Positions 48,477 through 64,000 of a stretch of 64,000 nt of DNA are shown here, one piece after another. The notes beneath the pieces are model-generated. The model worked only from the letters and a program-made list of their open reading frames with translations, was not told the origin of the DNA and searched no databases. Location of the stretch: the IMG/VR virus record IMGVR_UViG_3300025648_000012, positions 78,722-142,721 of that record, one strand, 5' to 3'. This DNA is from a virus. The translations under genes and the position numbers were made by a program. Numbering within the stretch: the first letter of the stretch is position 1; each line of letters opens with the position of its first letter.

Positions 48477-51400
48477 ATGCTACAAATTGATGCTAATCAG
48501 TTTCAAATTTACCAACCAGTAGGAGTAACTTTTAGCCTACAACCTTCCTTTTTAATTTTAGGAGGAAGTGGAAGCTACTCTTACGCTTCTTCTGGGCTTC
48601 CTTCTGGAGTCTCCATGTCTTCAACTGGAACTATCTCTGGGAAAGTTTCCGTTGCGTACCAAGGCGATTTTACAGTAACAGTTATGGATTTAGTTACTAA
48701 TTCACAAATTACAGCCACTTTTGACTATTACTTTGTAAATACTCTGTTTAACTACACAAATAATGCTCCTACATCAAGCCCTACTCTCAATAGAAGGCAG
48801 TTTTCAAAGCTAACTAGGCAAATTTTACTTCCACCCTATTTAGAAACGGCTTACTTTTTAGATCTATTAGGTGTTATTGACTTTGTATTTGACGCTAATC
48901 TTGATGCTCCAGTAGAGGCGTTAGAAAACATAAGAAATCCATATTGGAGCGGGCCAGGAGCTGAAGCCAAAATTGAAACACTGGATAACTCTACAGTGGA
49001 GTTACAATTTCCTGCTTGGGTTTCCTTGGCAGCTTCTACTGTAATTTCCACTTTGCCTGCTGGAACTTATGCCTACCAAGTTGCTCCCGTGTTTGCAAAC
49101 AACACCATAGGACCGGCAAATAGTTTAATGGAAGTATCTGTGGGGCGGCTAATTTCTCCTTCTTTAACCTGGACTGCTGTACCAAATGCTGTTAGTTATA
49201 ACATATATGGAAGAACAGAAGGCAATTTAGGATTACTTGTTAATGTACCTTATTCTGTACTATCTTACACAGATACAGGTGCAACCACACCAGTTACTGG
49301 TGGGTATATACCTTCACCATACCCTTATCCTAAACTATTGGATGAAACTGACTTATCTTCCGTAGATAGAACAACCCTTGTTCAACAAGTTAACTTACTT
49401 GGAATAAAGCTGCAATCAATTGGAGTTTTAGATGACTCCTCATACCGCTCGTTGTTGAGATTTTTAGGAAAATACTGGTTTCAAAAAGGTACAAAAGCCG
49501 CTATTGACTTTTTGAACTATGCACTCAATATCAATTTAGCCATAGATCAGCTATATGCAAACACTACAGCTAATTACTTAACTAAGATATATTCTGTGGG
49601 AGCAGTTTCTACCTTTGCTACTGGGTTGTCTGGACCTGCAGCCATGGTAAAGGATAACTCTGGAAACATCTATGTTGCGAATTACCAAGGTGGCAACACC
49701 ATATCTAAAATAACCCCAGCGGGAATAGTATCCACCTTTGCCACCGTACAGTCTCCCCCTTACGCACTAGCCATTGATTTAACTACTAATACTCTCTATG
49801 TAGGCTATGGACCTAATTATCCTTACGTATTATGCAAAATAACAAGTGCGGGAGTGGTTACACCAGTCTTTGCCACAATTTCCACTACACCTTGCTATGG
49901 TCAGTCTATTGTGGTAGATAGCACCGGAAGTAACATCTACGTATCTAATGGACAAGGCGTAATTACTAGAGTAACTTCAACTGGGTCAGTAGTTACAAAT
50001 TGGGCTGGGTACTCTGGATATACAAATGCTCCTATAGGTATTGACTCAAGTAACAACGTATACATAGCAACTCCTAACACAGGTTTCACCTCCATAGTAA
50101 CAAAAATTACTCCGGCTGGAGTAATTACAACACCTTGGGCTACAATTAGTGGAATAAATCCTATTGGATTAGCAATTGACTCAAGCAATAACGTATACGT
50201 AGCTTGCTTTGGAGCCTATCCAATATCCAAAATAACTTCGACAGGAGTAGTATCTACGTTAGCTACTTTGAATTTACCAAGTAGTTTCCCAACACCTATG
50301 ATCGTAGATTCTTTTGGATATATCTATGTAGGAAACAACACAAATACTACAATAACAAAAATAGCACCAAATGGGTCATACACTACCTTTGCGTACTTAC
50401 CGGGTTATTTCCTTTGGAGTTTTATTTTAGATTCAAGCAATGCGCTATATGTTTCTAATGAACTCTCTTTTGCGGGTAACCTTCCTTCAATAGTTAAAAT
50501 AACCAATTCCTCTGCAACTGCTACAATTGGTACAGCTTTAGCGAGTACTCCTTCTGCCATTGCTATTGATACTTCCGGTAACTACTACTTGGCTAACGGT
50601 GGAAGCAACACCGTATCCAAAGTAACAAGTGCAGGTGTTGTAACTCAAGTATTTGCAAATACGGGTACAAATCCCGTCGCTATTGCGGTAGATAGTTCAG
50701 GGAATGTCTATACTGCAAATAGTGGAAGTAGCTCAATTACCAAAGTTACTTCCACTGGGGTTGTTACTATAACCTGGGCTACTGTTGGAACAAATCCCGT
50801 AGCAATCACGGTAGATAGTTCTGGAAACGTCTATACTGCAAATAGTGGAAGTAATACTGTATCTAAGGTAACGAGTGCAGGGGTTGTTACAACAACCTGG
50901 GCTACTGCAGGTACAAATCCCGTAGCAATCACGGTAGATAGTTCTGGAAACGTCTATACTGCAAATAAAAATGCTAATTCCATATCTAAAGTAACAAGTG
51001 CTGGTGTAGTTACTCTTAATTGGGCTACTACGGGCACAAGTCCAAGCGGAATTGCCATTGATAGCTCAGGTAATGTCTATACTGCAAATAGTGTAAGTAA
51101 CACTGTTACCAAAGTAACAAGTGCAGGTGTAGTTACAGCAAGCTGGGCTACTACTGGAGCTACTCCCTCGTCCATTGCAGTTGATAGTTCTGGAAACGTC
51201 TATACTGCAAACTATGGAGCAAACACTTTAACTTTCATTACTCCATTAGGAACTTCTACTACTCCTTATGCAACCTTTACATCATCCGTAGGACCATTAG
51301 TAGTGGATAGCTCGGGTACCGTCTATACAACAGAGCAATCCATTGGAACTGATGGGTATTGGAGATCAGGCGATTTAACCAATTTATTAACTGCGTCTCA

Positions 51401-52547
51401 GGTAGCTGCAAATTCAAACTATACGTTACTTCAAAATGTAACTGTACCTTTGAACACGCTTACTCCAGCCCAACTTTCAAATGTTTGGATTCCAACAACT
51501 TTAGTTCAAATAACAAACAATACGCCATCAATATCCACTGATACAATAGTAACCCTATTTGACGAAGTATGTAACTATAATCTATGTATAAATAGGCTTT
51601 ACACAGTTCAAACTGTGGTAACTGTCTTGTATATTGACGTTTCTGGCACTGTATTAGATTCTATAGTTGGAACCGCTACCTTTCCAGACTATGCTAAGAT
51701 AAATATAATGCCATTAGCTATTGCCATTGATAGTTCAGGGAATGTCTATACTATTAGTCAATCAAGTAATTCCATTACCAAAGTAACAAGTGCTGGTGTA
51801 GTTACCCTTAATTGGGCTACTGTTGGATCAGTACCAAGTGATATAGCTGTTGATAGCTCAGGAAATGTATATACTGCTAATTACGCAAGTAACTCCATTA
51901 CCAAAGTAACGAGTGCAGGTGTAGTTACCCTTAATTGGGCTACTGTTGGATCAGTACCAGGGCATATTGCAATAGATAGCTCTGGTAACATTTATAAGAC
52001 TAATTACGCAAGTAACTCCATTACCAAAGTAACGAGTGCAGGTGTAGTTACTACAAGTTGGGCTACTACGGGCACAAGTCCAACAGCCATCGCTGTAGAT
52101 AGTATAGGGAACGTATATACTGCTAATTACGCAAGTAACTCCATTACCAAAGTAACAAGTGCTGGGGTGGGTACTACAAGCTGGGCTACTACGGGCACAA
52201 GTCCAAGCGGAATTGCCATTGATAGCTCAGGAAATGTATATACTGCAAATAGTGTAAGTAACACTGTTACCAAAGTAACAAGTGCAGGTGTAGTTACTAC
52301 AAGTTGGGCTACTACGGGCACAAGTCCAACAGCCATCGCTGTAGATAGTATAGGAAATGTATATATTGCAAATAGTGTAAGTAACACTGTTACCAAAGTA
52401 ACAAGTGCTGGGGTGGGTACTACAAGCTGGGCTACTGTAGGATCTCAGCCAGTGGATATTGCTGTTGATAACTTAGGGAACGTTTATACTGCTAATAGTG
52501 TAAGCAACACCATTACCAAAGTAACAAGTGCAGGAGTTGTACTCTAG
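48477..52547 (+). CDS. large baseplate protein with Ig-like domain and three beta-propellers
   Basis: Order: N-terminal Ig-like domain (SGLPSGVSMSSTGTISG, about residues 35-60), a tail-protein domain (about 95-370, SYRSLLRFLGKYWFQKG), repeats 1-14 of about 40 residues (about 371-951), a return of the tail domain (about 952-1076, including GYWRSGDLTNLL and LFDEVCNYNL), then repeats 15-21 (about 1077-1356). Repeats follow the pattern AIDSSGNVYTANSxSNTVTKVTSAGVV, of the NHL/SBBP-propeller type. Fourteen and seven repeats fit two and one seven-bladed propellers. Likely receptor binding at the baseplate rim. Many repeats are nearly identical in DNA. Confidence 0.75.
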   Translation: MLQIDANQFQIYQPVGVTFSLQPSFLILGGSGSYSYASSGLPSGVSMSSTGTISGKVSVAYQGDFTVTVMDLVTNSQITATFDYYFVNTLFNYTNNAPTSSPTLNRRQFSKLTRQILLPPYLETAYFLDLLGVIDFVFDANLDAPVEALENIRNPYWSGPGAEAKIETLDNSTVELQFPAWVSLAASTVISTLPAGTYAYQVAPVFANNTIGPANSLMEVSVGRLISPSLTWTAVPNAVSYNIYGRTEGNLGLLVNVPYSVLSYTDTGATTPVTGGYIPSPYPYPKLLDETDLSSVDRTTLVQQVNLLGIKLQSIGVLDDSSYRSLLRFLGKYWFQKGTKAAIDFLNYALNINLAIDQLYANTTANYLTKIYSVGAVSTFATGLSGPAAMVKDNSGNIYVANYQGGNTISKITPAGIVSTFATVQSPPYALAIDLTTNTLYVGYGPNYPYVLCKITSAGVVTPVFATISTTPCYGQSIVVDSTGSNIYVSNGQGVITRVTSTGSVVTNWAGYSGYTNAPIGIDSSNNVYIATPNTGFTSIVTKITPAGVITTPWATISGINPIGLAIDSSNNVYVACFGAYPISKITSTGVVSTLATLNLPSSFPTPMIVDSFGYIYVGNNTNTTITKIAPNGSYTTFAYLPGYFLWSFILDSSNALYVSNELSFAGNLPSIVKITNSSATATIGTALASTPSAIAIDTSGNYYLANGGSNTVSKVTSAGVVTQVFANTGTNPVAIAVDSSGNVYTANSGSSSITKVTSTGVVTITWATVGTNPVAITVDSSGNVYTANSGSNTVSKVTSAGVVTTTWATAGTNPVAITVDSSGNVYTANKNANSISKVTSAGVVTLNWATTGTSPSGIAIDSSGNVYTANSVSNTVTKVTSAGVVTASWATTGATPSSIAVDSSGNVYTANYGANTLTFITPLGTSTTPYATFTSSVGPLVVDSSGTVYTTEQSIGTDGYWRSGDLTNLLTASQVAANSNYTLLQNVTVPLNTLTPAQLSNVWIPTTLVQITNNTPSISTDTIVTLFDEVCNYNLCINRLYTVQTVVTVLYIDVSGTVLDSIVGTATFPDYAKINIMPLAIAIDSSGNVYTISQSSNSITKVTSAGVVTLNWATVGSVPSDIAVDSSGNVYTANYASNSITKVTSAGVVTLNWATVGSVPGHIAIDSSGNIYKTNYASNSITKVTSAGVVTTSWATTGTSPTAIAVDSIGNVYTANYASNSITKVTSAGVGTTSWATTGTSPSGIAIDSSGNVYTANSVSNTVTKVTSAGVVTTSWATTGTSPTAIAVDSIGNVYIANSVSNTVTKVTSAGVGTTSWATVGSQPVDIAVDNLGNVYTANSVSNTITKVTSAGVVL

Positions 52548-55417: not shown

Positions 55418-58400
55418 ATGACCACACTACTTAATTTTACAAATAATGCAGTAACTACTTTAGGTGCCCTGGTATCCCCAAGCTCAACAGTAATTACAGC
55501 TACTACTGGTACTGGAGCACTGTTTCCTACCTCTAGTTTTTTCTTGGTACTTAAAAACTCTTCTAGCTATGAAGTGTGTTTTTGTAGTGCAAGAACAAAT
55601 GATACTTTTGCTGTAGTTAGAGCACAAGATAACACTACTGCTCAGGCATTTAATGTGGGAGATACTTTAGAGTACGCAATCACTGCTGCTACTTTAAGGA
55701 CTATTCAGTCAAACCTAGGCAATTACTCTCAAACAATAGCCCCCACAACTGCCACTACGCTAACTACAACTCAAGGTGGTAGTTTTGTATCCATTGCTTC
55801 TACTGGACTAACAATCCCTATTGGTTTACCAACTCCAGTTAATAATAATGGCTTAACTTACACCCTGGTAAATAGAAACACTGTAGTTTCAGTAATAACC
55901 ACATCCACAAATTTAATAATAGTTAGCGGTACTGGAGTTTCCGCATCCACACTTTCTCTAAATCCAAATTCAGAAGTTGAACTTGTTTCTGATGGTACAA
56001 ATTGGATAGCTACTTTTGTATCTGATGGTTCTCTAGTTAAATCCAACCTATACTCTGGAACTACTGGCCAAGTGTTGTTAAGTAATGGCTCTGGTAATGC
56101 TCCAACTTATGGAGCCTATAGTGTGTCTTTAACTTCGAGTCAAGTTACAACTGCTCTTGGGTATACTCCATATTCAGCAGCTAACCCTTCTAACTATATA
56201 ACTAGTTCTGGCAGTATTTCTGGTAGTGCCGGTTCTGTTGCTAATGGACTAACCATTGGCACTGGATTATCTGGTACATCTTACAATGGGTCAGTACCGA
56301 CTACTATTGCTTTAGCCAACACTGCTGTAACCTCTGGTTCTTATACGAACGCCTCTATAACAGTTAATGCTCAAGGCCAAATAACTGCTGCATCCAGTGG
56401 ATTCGGTGGTGCAGTTACCTCAGTAGCTGGTACTGCAGGGCAAATAACCTCAACTGGTGGTTCCACTCCAGTAATTGGATTAGCAAGTGGAATTGTAACT
56501 GCTGGAACTACTGGATCTTCTACGCTAATTCCAGTAGTCACTGTAGATACTTATGGTAGAGTAACGTCAATTACGACTGCTGCTAATCCTCAAGGAGCAG
56601 TTACTTCAGTATCGGGCACAGGTACAGTTAACGGTTTAACTTTAACGGGTACTGTAACTTCTACTGGCAGCTTAACTCTGGGTGGGTCTTTGAGTGGAAT
56701 TGCTAATTCCTCATTAACCAATAGCACAATATCAGGAGTGGCTTTAGGGAGTTCGTTGTTTAATTTAACTGCTGGCACCAACATTTCTTTTTCTTCTGGT
56801 ACAACTTATAATGGGTCTGCTGCAGTAACCATAAATGCAACTTCTTCAAGTTCAAACTTGTATATAGGATCTGGGTCTGGTTCTCCAACTAATCCAACGG
56901 TAGGCGCATATCTTGGTCAAGTGGCGATTGGTAACGGTGCGATAGTTTCCAGCACAGGAACGGGCGGGATTGCAATAGGCACTACTGCAACGGTAGCGGG
57001 TTCGACTAATAATGCGGTGGCAATCGGTAATTCTTACGCTTCGGGGGCGGATTCTTTTGCTGCGGCTATTGCAGACCATTCGGGGACGTTTGGGGCGCTT
57101 GCTGCTAGTTCAATAGCATTGGGCTATCAAAGCACGGTATCTTCTGCATATTCGGGGGTATCTGGCGGGTATAAAAATAGCATATCATCTGGTGGCAATT
57201 ATAACGGTATAGCTTCCGGTCAAAATAATAGTATAGCTACTGGGGGTCCTGCCAACTTTATTGGCGGCGGGGCTTTCAATAGCATCACGTCGTCAAGTTA
57301 CAACTCAATATTAGGTGGTAGTAATAATTACATACAAGGCAGTTCCCAATATGGAACAATATTAGGGGGATATGGTAATTACATTACTGCAACTTCTGGC
57401 GGAGTCGCCTTTGGTACTTATGCAAAAGCCACCGGATACAACCAAGTTGCTTATGCCTCCGGCTCGATAGCATCTCCGGGCGACTCACAAATTTCTTGGT
57501 ATGTTGTTAGACGCACGACAAATAACGCTACGCTTACATCTTTATATCCTGATGGTGCAGGGAATTTTGTCTCGCCAATAGTTCAACCCTCTCAAGCATT
57601 GTCCTACGAAATAACTGTAGTAGCTCATGTTGCATCTTTTATTATAAATGTAGGTTCTAGCCCTACTGGAATAGTCGTTGATACATCCGGCAATATTTAT
57701 GTTGCAAATTCTGGTTCTGGTACTGTTAGCAAGATTGCTTTAGGAGTAGCTAATAACACTTGGGCAACGGTTGGTATTAACCCTTACGGAGTGGCCCTTG
57801 ATTCTTCCAGTAATGTTTATGTGGCTAATTACGGGTCGGGTACAGTCAGCAAGATTACACCTACAGGGGTAGTTACTACCATTGCATTGGGAGACAACCC
57901 CTATGCAATAGCTGTGGATTCTTCCGGTAATGTTTATACGGCTAATTTGGGTTCTGGTGCTGTTAGTAAAATTACATCAGCTGGAGCAGTTACTACAACA
58001 TGGGCTACAGTTGGGGGTTCACCTCGTGGCATAGCCATTGATTCTTCCGGTAATGTTTATGTGACCAATTCTGGTTCTAGCACTGTTAGCAAGATTACAC
58101 CTGCCGGTGCGGTTACTACAACATGGGCTACTGTTGGAACCGGCCCCAGTGGAATAGGCATTGATACATCAGGCAATGTTTATGTGGCTAATACTGGGTC
58201 GGGTACTGTTAGTAAAATTACATCAGCTGGAGCAGTTACTGCAACATGGGCTACTGTGGGTTCTAGCCCTACTGGACTAGTCATTGATACATCAGGCAAT
58301 GTTTATGTGACAAATTATGGCTCGGGGACTGTTAGCAAGATTACATCAATCGGTGCGGTTACTGCAACATGGGCTACTGTAGGTGCTAACCCTTTTGGAA

Positions 58401-58732
58401 TAGCCCTTGATTCTTCAGGCACTGTTTATGTGACTAATTTGGGGGGCGGTTCTATTAACAGAATTACATCAGCGGGGGTGTTAGTCAGCTCTGGGGCGGC
58501 GGCGACATGGTCGTCTATAACGCCCGGGTTGGTTTACAACGATGGCGGAAAGTTAAACAATATCGCACCTACATTTTCCCCCATTGTTTCTACGGGGGGG
58601 GTATGGACGGGTGCAGGTGTATCGGTAACTACTTCTGGTACTAACCTAATCGTGCAAGTGACACCACCAACTTCAACAACCGACACTATCCACTGGGTAG
58701 CACGTATTAGAACCGTGGAAGTTACCAACTAA
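55418..58732 (+). CDS. mosaic tail fibre with YadA-like head and seven-bladed propeller repeats
   Basis: The ATG at 55418 is used; the frame before it is only the duplicated leader. Residues about 1-100 form the attachment domain, 115-210 carry the module shared with the J-like protein (NSEVELVSDGTNWIAT), and 210-480 are Gly, Ser and Thr-rich repeats. Residues about 485-690 are a YadA-like trimeric head (AIGNGA, AVAIGNSYASGADSF, GGGAFNSITSSSYNSI). Seven propeller repeats (IDTSGNVYVANTGSGTVSKI) occupy about 740-1030, and a unique tail ends it. Bases 56900-57560 and 58440-58740 are richer in G and C with different codons, so the parts come from different sources. Confidence 0.75.
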   Translation: MTTLLNFTNNAVTTLGALVSPSSTVITATTGTGALFPTSSFFLVLKNSSSYEVCFCSARTNDTFAVVRAQDNTTAQAFNVGDTLEYAITAATLRTIQSNLGNYSQTIAPTTATTLTTTQGGSFVSIASTGLTIPIGLPTPVNNNGLTYTLVNRNTVVSVITTSTNLIIVSGTGVSASTLSLNPNSEVELVSDGTNWIATFVSDGSLVKSNLYSGTTGQVLLSNGSGNAPTYGAYSVSLTSSQVTTALGYTPYSAANPSNYITSSGSISGSAGSVANGLTIGTGLSGTSYNGSVPTTIALANTAVTSGSYTNASITVNAQGQITAASSGFGGAVTSVAGTAGQITSTGGSTPVIGLASGIVTAGTTGSSTLIPVVTVDTYGRVTSITTAANPQGAVTSVSGTGTVNGLTLTGTVTSTGSLTLGGSLSGIANSSLTNSTISGVALGSSLFNLTAGTNISFSSGTTYNGSAAVTINATSSSSNLYIGSGSGSPTNPTVGAYLGQVAIGNGAIVSSTGTGGIAIGTTATVAGSTNNAVAIGNSYASGADSFAAAIADHSGTFGALAASSIALGYQSTVSSAYSGVSGGYKNSISSGGNYNGIASGQNNSIATGGPANFIGGGAFNSITSSSYNSILGGSNNYIQGSSQYGTILGGYGNYITATSGGVAFGTYAKATGYNQVAYASGSIASPGDSQISWYVVRRTTNNATLTSLYPDGAGNFVSPIVQPSQALSYEITVVAHVASFIINVGSSPTGIVVDTSGNIYVANSGSGTVSKIALGVANNTWATVGINPYGVALDSSSNVYVANYGSGTVSKITPTGVVTTIALGDNPYAIAVDSSGNVYTANLGSGAVSKITSAGAVTTTWATVGGSPRGIAIDSSGNVYVTNSGSSTVSKITPAGAVTTTWATVGTGPSGIGIDTSGNVYVANTGSGTVSKITSAGAVTATWATVGSSPTGLVIDTSGNVYVTNYGSGTVSKITSIGAVTATWATVGANPFGIALDSSGTVYVTNLGGGSINRITSAGVLVSSGAAATWSSITPGLVYNDGGKLNNIAPTFSPIVSTGGVWTGAGVSVTTSGTNLIVQVTPPTSTTDTIHWVARIRTVEVTN

Positions 58733-61276: not shown

Positions 61277-61305
61277 TTGACAATTTACAAAGGTTACTAT
61301 ATAAT
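61277..61305 (+). promoter_or_regulatory. consensus sigma-70 promoter
   Basis: TTGACA at 61277-61282 and TATAAT at 61300-61305 are both perfect, with a 17-base spacer, the ideal host sigma-70 arrangement. It would read rightward into the broken gene, the small ORF and possibly the structured-RNA region. No other site in the window matches both boxes so well. Confidence 0.9.
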
Positions 61306-61356: not shown

Positions 61357-61696
61357 ATGGGCATAACAAAAATTAAATCCTCTAAAATAATTCCAGACAT
61401 TGGAAATTCCGTAATTGACGCTGCCTTGCTACATCTAAATTATTACTTAGTAAAGGAAAGCTACACGCAATCGAATCTTACAATGGTAAACAGGTTTACA
61501 AGGAGGTAGTCCAACAAGTTTTGGATACTACGTGCTTTATGACTTGGAAGAAAAGGCTATTTTGTACTTTGTGAGATACCGTTTAATAAAAGCTAATAAA
61601 ATTAAAATGGGTAGACAAGTACTAGTATGGAGAAATAGAAAAAGCGTAGCTGCAGCAGGGTTCCCTTATTTTAACCAAAGGAGAATAAAGTCATGA
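61357..61696 (+). pseudogene. broken small gene, three frames used
   Basis: The ATG at 61357 opens a frame of 50 codons ending TAG at 61509 (MGITKIKSSKIIPDIG). A different frame then reads as good protein to the TGA at 61694-61696 (FGYYVLYDLEEKAILYFVRY and KMGRQVLVWRNRK), and a third frame looks protein-like between them (IESYNGKQVYKEV). Together they outline one gene of about 110 residues with two indels. Its stop overlaps the ATG of the next gene. The breaks may be real or sequencing indels. The family was not named. Confidence 0.6.
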
Positions 61697-61941
61697 TTCA
61701 AGTACTAATTCAAGGACCAGAACATTCCAAAAAAGACTGGGTAGTTTTAACCATTGCTAAAGCATTAAGAGAAATGGGAGCGCAAGTATCCGTTCTTGGT
61801 GAGGATACCTACATGGCTCATAAAGCTACAGCTAACATTGAGGAATTTCAATCTAGATTGACTGGTCAAGACATCGTAGTAGCAGAAGTAAGAACTGGCA
61901 AAGTTCACTTGAGATCAACTAAAGAATACGCAGAAGATTAA
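61693..61941 (+). CDS. small protein with decayed P-loop (82 aa)
   Basis: The opening VLIQGPEHSKKDWVVLTIAKALREMG has the exact layout of a small P-loop NTPase (strand, G-P-x-x-S-x-K, helix), but the lysine-threonine of Walker A is replaced by KKD, so nucleotide binding is doubtful. Similar short phage proteins with GPxGSGKT openings are common; this appears to be a degenerate member. ATGA overlap with the broken gene; AAAGGAG upstream. Confidence 0.55.
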   Translation: MIQVLIQGPEHSKKDWVVLTIAKALREMGAQVSVLGEDTYMAHKATANIEEFQSRLTGQDIVVAEVRTGKVHLRSTKEYAED

Positions 61942-61955
61942 AAAGGAACTTAACC

Positions 61956-62084
61956 TTAGCTATTCTAAGCAAAACTTACCCAATTACTTCCGTGGAAGAG
62001 GCAATAGAAGTTCTTTTAGTACTTAACAACATAAAAGAACTGCGAAAAGAATTGGTTAACTTGGGTTTAATAGATGTAATATAG
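61956..62084 (+). other. possible short coding remnant without standard start
   Basis: The frame is open for 42 codons, reading LAILSKTYPITSVEEAIEVL and ending RKELVNLGLIDVI. It looks like the helical end of a small phage protein, but there is no ATG, GTG or TTG at a suitable place after the AAGGA at 61943. It could be a TTG-to-TTA decayed gene or chance. Confidence 0.3.
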
Positions 62085-62101
62085 AAGATGCGATATAGAA
62101 C

Positions 62102-62150
62102 ACTAACGCTTACCTCGGCACAACTCTACGGTAAGCGTTAGTCTTTTAAT
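62102..62150 (+). terminator. intrinsic terminator
   Basis: ACTAACGCTTACC at 62102-62114 pairs perfectly with GGTAAGCGTTAGT at 62130-62142 (13 bp, 15-base loop), followed by CTTTTAAT. This stem-plus-U-tract would end transcripts from the promoter at 61.3 kb, or, if the RNA starts earlier, would be the first hairpin of the structured RNA. Confidence 0.75.
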
Positions 62151-63390
62151 TAGCTAGAACCACTCCTAGCTTTGTGTAGTAGTGGGGGTGTTTGCCGCAG
62201 GGTGTGTTTCGCGGGGCACCGTAAAAACAGGATGTTTCACTGAGATAATCTTTGTGAAGAAGTATTGCTGAGAAGCATCACTTTCTTGTAAAGAACCAAG
62301 GCTCCATACTTAGATGCCATAGGCTATTAACTACAGTTATGGTATTGGTCAGTTTAAGAACATAAGCGCTTTTTGTTAAAAAAGTACACACCAGTTAACG
62401 GTTATACGGCCCTTGAAAAAGGTGTCCAAGGTCAAACTCCAAGACAAGAAGGCTGCCTAGTTACGCAGCGACCCGTTAACTTCACAATATTGCGTAGTTT
62501 AGTTAGGTATGCCGTTTACGGATAAACATACTTAATCTGTTTACAATCAAACTACGCACAGGTTTATATCTTGTACGCCTGAGGTTCTAGCCCGCTCTTG
62601 GATGTAGCGGTAAAGGTAGCACTTTGGCGCCTATTGTAATTCTTAACAGGTTGCAGTAGGGTCGGAAGATTGGGGAGGTTCAGTCCCTTAGCTAAAAGTG
62701 TCGTATAGCTTTGTTAAAATGTCCTATACTTAGAAGAATCAGGCTCCCGACATTCTTAATGCTCCAATCGGCTTAAGAGTGGGCCAAAAGCACAACAGGG
62801 ACCTGCGGTGGGATTCGTCCTTTTTCAGGAAGGGCGGTGTAACATAGAGCATAGTGTAACAGGTAGTGAGAAAAGAGAGTTTATATAGTTGATGCGGCTA
62901 AACAGCTTAAAAAAGCCAGCGTAAAGTTAAAAGTAGTGGAAAACACCACGAAAATGCCAAATTGGTGAAAGCTAAGGCGGTGCGCCACACAAGTGGATAC
63001 AGACTCAAAACATTATTTTGTTCTAGCGGTGAGGAATCGTTCTCGAAAAGGTAGTAGGCTGGCAGAGTTTAGCTGAAATCTGAATGTTATTGGATACCAC
63101 CCCTGCTTTGCTTACGCGTGATGCGGCAAAGTAGGAACCGTACTTGATTCAGGTATGGCTGTTTTACTGACTAATCAAAGAAATGTGACTCGGATGCGAG
63201 CGTTTCGGTGGTTGGTTGGGCTGCATTTCAAGCAAGACCTATGTGCAGATGCTGCGGCGGAGTTAACTTTGGGGCGACCAAACCCGTGTAGCAAAGGCAG
63301 TAATCACGCAACCTACTGAACCGGTGCCGGTGCCGAGTGGAATAAATATGGAGTGAGCCGACTAATCCCACTCCATGCTCACTTTTGTGT
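62151..63390 (+). ncRNA. large structured non-coding RNA candidate (about 1.2 kb)
   Basis: There is no credible gene for 1.2 kb, yet base composition is visibly richer in G and C than in flanks and many helices can be drawn on the + strand: 62187-62190 with 62217-62220 plus 62195-62198 with 62211-62214; 62266-62269/62274-62277 closed by GAGA; 62411-62414/62419-62422 closed by GAAA; GTTAACGG 62394-62401 with 62473-62480; 62452-62456/62465-62469; nested 62491-62500/62549-62558, 62503-62511/62527-62535 and 62512-62514/62519-62521; 62816-62822/62830-62836; 63102-63111/63126-63135; 63138-63146/63150-63158; 63171-63178/63212-63219 enclosing 63189-63192/63197-63200; 63348-63355/63369-63376. Two GNRA loops and long-range pairings are typical of ornate phage RNAs such as GOLLD and ROOL. 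I cannot assign it to either. Confidence 0.7.
63348..63387 (+). terminator. 3' hairpin of the structured RNA, terminator-like with alternative pairing
   Basis: Two stems compete: ATGGAGTG (63348-63355) with CACTCCAT (63369-63376), and GTGAGC (63353-63358) with GCTCAC (63377-63382), the latter followed by TTTTGTGTT. The second looks like an intrinsic terminator and would mark the 3' end of the RNA. Confidence 0.6.
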
Positions 63391-63574
63391 TAAAGTGTCC
63401 ATTTTTATTGAATTTTCAAAAAATTGCATATTTTTATATGCTAATTTTGAAGCCTTTTAAGGGGGATATAACCTGCGGATTAAGGCCTCATGGAATAATG
63501 AGGAAAGTCAGTACGAGATACAGTGAGAAAATGGAAGAAAAAGAGAAAATAAATGAAGAAAATGGGAAAATTAA
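63391..63574 (+). other. gene-free AT-rich spacer with two small hairpins
   Basis: Nothing coding is supported. A short palindrome GCATAT-TTTT-ATATGC lies at 63425-63440 and CCTCAT/ATGAGG at 63486-63491/63498-63503. A 76-codon frame begins at 63375 inside the terminator hairpin, has odd composition, and is rejected as a gene. Confidence 0.5.
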
Positions 63575-63700
63575 GGAAGTGAGGCTAAAAAAAAGAGTAA
63601 GTTAGGAGAGAAAGTGGAGAAATAGAGGAAGTGAGGCTAAAAAAAAGAGTAAGTTAGGAGAGAAAGTGGAGAAATAGAGGAAGTGAGGCTAAAAAAAGAG
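63575..63700 (+). repeat. 52-bp tandem repeat, about 2.4 copies
   Basis: A purine-rich 52-bp unit starting GGAAGTGAGGCTAAAAAAAA repeats at 63575, 63627 and (partially) 63679, essentially identical between the full copies. Confidence 0.9.
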
Positions 63701-63720
63701 AAACTGTAAATATATAGAAT

Positions 63721-63811
63721 ATAGGTAATAGTGGTTATAGGTAATAGTGGTTATAGGTAATAGTGGTTATAGGTAATAGTGGTTATAGGTAATAGTGGTT
63801 ATAGGTAATAG
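63721..63811 (+). repeat. 16-bp tandem repeat, about 5.7 copies
   Basis: ATAGGTAATAGTGGTT repeats with exact 16-bp period at 63721, 63737, 63753, 63769 and 63785, then a partial copy at 63801. Confidence 0.92.
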
Positions 63812-63853
63812 GGAGAGATAAATGAACATATTTTATCTAAGTAAGAATACAAA

Positions 63854-64000
63854 GCTATGTGCTAAGTACCATTGCTATGTGCTAAGTACCATTGCTATGT
63901 GCTAAGTACCATTGCTATGTGCTAAGTACCATTGCTATGTGCTAAGTACCATTGCTATGTGCTAAGTACCATTGCTATGTGCTAAGTACCATTGCTATGT
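63854..64000 (+). repeat. 20-bp tandem repeat running off the window
   Basis: GCTATGTGCTAAGTACCATT repeats perfectly with 20-bp period from 63854 (seven full copies and the start of an eighth at 63994) and continues past the window edge. Exact identity suggests recent expansion, an iteron-type site, or a repeat-collapsed contig end. Confidence 0.92.

Follow-up and report, generated by a model that had tools for sequence, protein, structure and literature searches.

The longest gene-free interval in this phage genome probably holds an orphan + strand gene encoding a folded long non-coding RNA of about 1.2 kb, of the kind found in phages ICP1 and K. The window that we analysed covers the final 64 kb of a viral contig of 142,721 bp, and the features discussed below are collected in Table 1. 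We regard a long non-coding RNA (lncRNA) gene as the best explanation because the interval has no coding capacity and a raised G+C content, is bounded by hairpins at both ends, has a promoter upstream and folds with statistics like those of lncRNAs. The sequence-only reading had proposed a long non-coding RNA here with ornate structure and a possible kinship to GOLLD and ROOL. The long RNA itself stands as the best explanation of the gap, whereas the ornate structure and the kinship were not supported.

Table 1. Features in and around the candidate RNA (window positions unless stated; energies and z-scores are of predicted folds)
Feature	Position	Strand	Details
Perfect sigma70 promoter	61277-61305	+	TTGACA-17-TATAAT; 12/12 matches; directly 3' of RNase H gene
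Two short ORFs	61357-61509, 61532-61696	+	
Small protein gene	61693-61941	+	82 aa; coding-like codon use, log-odds +26
Strong hairpin	62096-62148	+	inverted repeat with 19-nt arms; 13-bp central stem, 15-nt loop, then TCTTTTA
Candidate long non-coding RNA	62151-63390	+	~1.24 kb; putative ends, set by the hairpins on either side
GNRA loop	62266		GAGA in TGCTGAGAAGCA
Long hairpin	62491-62558	+	TGCGTAGTTT...AAACTACGCA with inner CATAC helix
Predicted multibranched domain	62590-62784	+	12-bp closing helix, 62590-62601 with 62773-62784; z -2.5
GNRA loop	62962		GAAA in TTGGTGAAAGCTAA
Three successive stable hairpins	63100-63222	+	best-folding block; -51.0 kcal/mol, z -5.2
Alternative stems at 3' end	63347-63405	+	TATGGAGTG/CACTCCATG and GGAGTGAGC/GCTCACTTT
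Stem and following sequence	within 63347-63405	+	CACTTT/AAAGTG then TCCATTTTTATT
Split PF03013 gene	63829-64000, and 1-445 of the whole contig (G000; locus L007)		further frame change near T-run

Both contig ends fall in one and the same 20-bp tandem array, which splits a pyrimidine-dimer-glycosylase gene. Read across the junction, the two halves of this gene both match PF03013, which makes it probable that the contig represents a closed genome of 142.7 kb. Several other tandem arrays cluster round the split gene (63529-63811 in the window; about 541-650 and 865-925 in locus L007), and they could be true repeat expansions or assembly artefacts. The terminase and portal proteins are 44-47% identical to those of the Burkholderia phages BcepSauron and BcepSaruman and 36-40% identical to those of the Achromobacter phage Motura; judged by these identities, the phage is a distant relative of jumbo myophages. 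By its terminase (100% identical), one other contig belongs to the same phage, and in a portal alignment of 51 loci the closest non-identical relative in IMG/VR was ~50% identical. A portal scan of GTDB genomes returned no relative of the phage. The window also encodes tail-region proteins with long arrays of a 41-aa (123-bp) repeat, at 50599-52534 and 57667-58473; we take these repeats (VDSSGNVYTAN...) to resemble NHL/beta-propeller-type repeats.

The ORF-free gap extends from 61942 to 63374 (1433 bp), with no ORF of at least 60 aa on either strand, and a codon-usage gene caller agreed with the ORF scan. The second-largest interior gap of the genome is only 443 bp. The gene-free stretch of 1.2 kb reported earlier is therefore present and longer still, and it is a long ORF-less intergenic region like those that hold the ICP1 and phage K lncRNAs. 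Between 62085 and 63400, each of the six frames (438 codons) contains 19-30 stops, near the random expectation at its G+C. Stop-masked frames gave no match in the gap to Pfam (all six frames) or to PHROGs (the three + strand frames), and tblastn of such frames against 20 phage sequence sets, including the phage's own genome, was likewise empty. The chance-level stop counts and the lack of a Pfam, PHROG or tblastn trace disfavour a coding or pseudogene reading of the gap, leaving room for an unrecognised decayed insert.

The G+C content is 44.8% for 62151-63390 and 43.5% for the whole gap, compared to 38.2% for coding DNA and 34.7% for the remaining intergenic DNA. The published GC-IGR method (PMC6429828) finds structured RNAs by this criterion, an intergenic region that is long and relatively G+C-rich within an AT-rich genome. 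Alternatively, the higher G+C could reflect the source of a decayed or recently acquired segment, the gap being non-functional DNA in a degenerate corner of the genome. A truncated paralogue upstream (61357-61696), together with the clustered tandem arrays (63529-64000) and the array-interrupted glycosylase gene downstream, would suit decay or expansion, and we counted these degenerate-looking surroundings against an lncRNA. Neither of the relatives BcepSauron and contig G005 has a comparable gap in the corresponding stretch, and the fold of the region is not unusual among windows of the genome, both of which fit idle DNA. However, no frame carries a protein trace, no source searched gave a DNA match and the other interior gaps are all below 450 bp; idle DNA of 1.4 kb is rarely retained in phage genomes. 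The block at 63100-63222 and the flanking hairpins are also non-random. On this evidence, we consider non-functional DNA unlikely.

Folding of the region was compared with shuffled sequence and with the rest of the genome. The fold energy is modestly better than that of dinucleotide shuffles on the + strand (z -2.5/-2.6) but not on the minus strand (0.0/-0.4), and it is ordinary relative to other windows of the genome after correction for dinucleotide composition, a point that we counted against an lncRNA. Of the structure claimed beyond AT-rich expectation, a modest sense-strand excess over shuffles thus holds, but none over composition-matched genome windows. The minimum free energy (MFE) fold contains 34 helices of at least 5 bp, compared to 37.8 +/- 3.0 in shuffles, and 22 hairpins, compared to 22.5; dinucleotide shuffles have just as many perfect 7-10 bp helices within 300 nt. 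These shuffle-level counts also weigh against an lncRNA. The earlier description of many helices, nested three deep, was not shown to exceed chance in helix count, hairpin count or nesting, and with helix counts at chance the 'giant ornate' structure has not been demonstrated. Since the region and its shuffles are alike by helix count, spotting helices in a single sequence is not enough to establish such large RNAs. The two GNRA tetraloops that had been noticed are both present; shuffles have a mean of 0.5 such hairpin loops, and 4 of 60 shuffles reach two.

The local blocks 62096-62148, 62488-62562 and 63100-63222 were picked post hoc, after inspection. Within the region, only 63100-63222 is an exceptional fold; its MFE structure equals the centroid, and none of 200 shuffles folded as well. 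The stretch 62488-62562 has a z-score of -3.9 and a low ensemble diversity (2% of shuffles are lower), and 62790-63050 folds no better than chance (z about 0). A pattern in which only 62488-62562, 63100-63222 and the flanking hairpins clearly beat chance would be consistent with several smaller RNAs or untranslated ends, for example 63100-63222 plus the terminator as an independent small RNA. Against such a division, no sigma70-type promoter on the + strand within the region came up in the consensus scan and the raised G+C spans the whole gap, making it quite improbable.

Three phage lncRNAs with transcription demonstrated by RNA-seq served as controls, namely that of ICP1 (PMC7567579) and lnc001 and lnc002 of phage K (PMC9241854). 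Their sense-strand fold z-scores are -3.0, -2.1 and -6.8, respectively, and the candidate, at -2.6, has comparable fold statistics. Because transcribed phage lncRNAs score alike, the modest fold score excludes nothing. Genuine phage lncRNAs can have such values, and fold energy by itself can neither establish nor rule out one. A search of Rfam likewise gave no family for any of the three controls. The lncRNA of the Vibrio phage ICP1 occupies a ~1 kb ORF-less space between gp139 and gp140 of a 126-kb phage and, like the candidate, has no adjoining tRNA, no Rfam family and a fold z of about -3. Unlike the candidate, which was read from sequence alone, it has been proven by RNA-seq, where no other phage transcript is as abundant, and the two share no sequence similarity. 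The phage K (Kayvirus) RNAs are intergenic, 0.6-1.2 kb long and outside Rfam, as is the candidate, but they adjoin tRNA genes, are RNA-seq-proven and have no sequence similarity to it. Transcription of lnc001 has been reported from its own early promoter (PMC9241854).

Searches of the candidate region against Rfam at gathering and permissive thresholds gave only chance matches (mir-927, TP73-AS1), and there was no Rfam match to group I or II introns, RNase P or HEARO. An RNase P P4-like motif near 63500, GAGGAAAGTC, was judged a coincidence. With E values up to 5 allowed, the GOLLD model (RF02032, conserved 3' domain) did not match the region, and its only match genome-wide was a 5.9-bit fragment elsewhere, compared to a cut-off of 150. 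Neither the ROOL model (RF03087; cmscan, permissive filters) nor the OLE model (RF01071; permissive filters) matched the region. The same two models had no match genome-wide, a weak result for both, as the control genomes gave none either. GOLLD, a large RNA borne by phages and prophages, is often encoded near tRNA genes. No tRNA was found in the window, and the only one detected in the genome (Arg, at 75427 of the whole contig) lies ~65 kb from the region. ROOL, also a large phage and prophage RNA, has a model of 574 positions, and the candidate region is about twice as long. With neither model matching and the tRNA so distant, the suggested kinship to GOLLD or ROOL was not borne out, and comparison with covariance models of GOLLD, ROOL, OLE and other Rfam families assigned the candidate to no family.

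Long RNAs with no assigned function occur in several unrelated large phages, and some known large phage RNAs form cages larger than the ribosome. It is conceivable, though doubtful, that the candidate represents a new class of large phage RNA with no sequence kinship to GOLLD, ROOL, OLE or the ICP1 and phage K lncRNAs, transcribed from an early host-type promoter and folding into a large particle that might be homo-oligomeric, as the GOLLD and ROOL cages are. Whether or not its class is new, a genuine long RNA here would add an independent case from a clade that is related to the jumbo phages of Burkholderia and Achromobacter, and would suggest that such RNAs are a recurrent phage strategy, under-counted because sequence models miss them.

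Homologues of the region were sought widely. DNA similarity searches of ~50,700 phage and 72,500 plasmid records found none, and 46 viral records reached by portal or RNase H, as well as the longer relatives' records taken in full, gave only chance matches to the candidate RNA. As a positive control, the local search easily recovered a version of the sequence altered at about 30% of its bases. A single-sequence covariance model of 63100-63222 matched only itself in 154 sources (3 Mb); a weak match in a Yersinia phage (E 0.1) overlaps annotated coding DNA and was rejected. Exact-pattern scans, four of IMG/VR and one of GTDB, returned nothing or chance matches. Used as anchors, RNase H led to unrelated phages and the 82-aa neighbour had no match. 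In several relatives, long gaps proved to be clusters of tRNA or tmRNA genes. We counted the empty homologue search against an lncRNA, although the result is unsurprising given that the nearest non-identical relative in IMG/VR is so distant in its portal. In one relative, contig G019, whose portal is 50% identical, a permuted tmRNA (RF04321, 83.5 bits; locus L109, 11182-11431) lies inside a large tRNA array.

Going upstream from the RNA region, the first strong promoter is the perfect sigma70 promoter at 61277, which may drive the candidate RNA. It lies 0.84 kb away, with small ORFs and a terminator-like hairpin in between, and we counted both the distance and the hairpin against an lncRNA. 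The genome has four perfect sigma70 promoters, all on the + strand with 17-bp spacers. The other three, outside the window at 51960, 57375 and 67240 of the whole contig, precede probable early genes. They have an extended motif in common, AATAAATTTGACA...TATAATATAATTGTGGTAGAATAGAACCACGATTTTAACTT, as well as a leader with the potential to fold into a GTGGT/ACCAC hairpin; by these shared elements they look like an early-promoter family. Downstream of the 61277 promoter, 61357-61696 is a frame-broken, truncated relic of a ~190-aa family with no assigned function. Its 61532-61696 part is a truncated copy, with full copies at 76180-76803 of the whole contig (tblastn 45% over 60 aa, E 5e-8) and in the related contig G040 (51% over 47 aa, E 7e-11; locus L199, 10046-10627). 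The 82-aa protein that follows has no Pfam or PHROG match.

The hairpin at 62096-62148 is predicted at -21.3 kcal/mol (z -5.6), and we propose that it is the terminator of the upstream unit and/or a site where the RNA is processed at its 5' edge. The other end has stacked hairpins and, after them, TTTTT at about 63400, suggesting that 63347-63405 is a probable transcription terminator. The sequence-only reading had placed the RNA after one terminator and ended it at another, and terminator-like hairpins indeed stand at both positions. We infer the transcription, ends, abundance, timing and any trans function of the candidate lncRNA, its function by analogy to the ICP1 and phage K lncRNAs. Host RNA polymerase would start early at the 61277 promoter, or at a closer one that escaped recognition, and would read through the 62096-62148 hairpin unless the transcript were processed there. 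Transcription would stop at the hairpins around 63347-63405, and the RNA may accumulate as a stable particle or scaffold that acts in trans on the host or on phage development, a role that has also been supposed for the abundant ICP1 and phage K lncRNAs.

The same neighbourhood could point to a DNA-level element such as a replication origin or terminus or a site for packaging; an origin might be RNA-primed, with the neighbouring RNase H gene serving it. An RNase HI gene and a consensus promoter adjoin the region, repeats are close by and the cumulative GC skew has its maximum at 142.6 kb. However, this maximum follows gene strand, a skew maximum usually marks a terminus and not an origin, and there is no strict DnaA box and no iteron inside the region. 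A DNA-level element is thus very unlikely, and the skew and the absence of boxes specifically disfavour a replication origin.

A separate intergenic element lies at 75929-76200 of the whole contig (locus L010, 15929-16200), ~430 bp after the Arg tRNA and just upstream of the intact paralogue of the truncated 61357-61696 gene. It has no Rfam or phage match. With a G+C of 51% and a fold z-score of -2.6, it is a possible second RNA of the phage.
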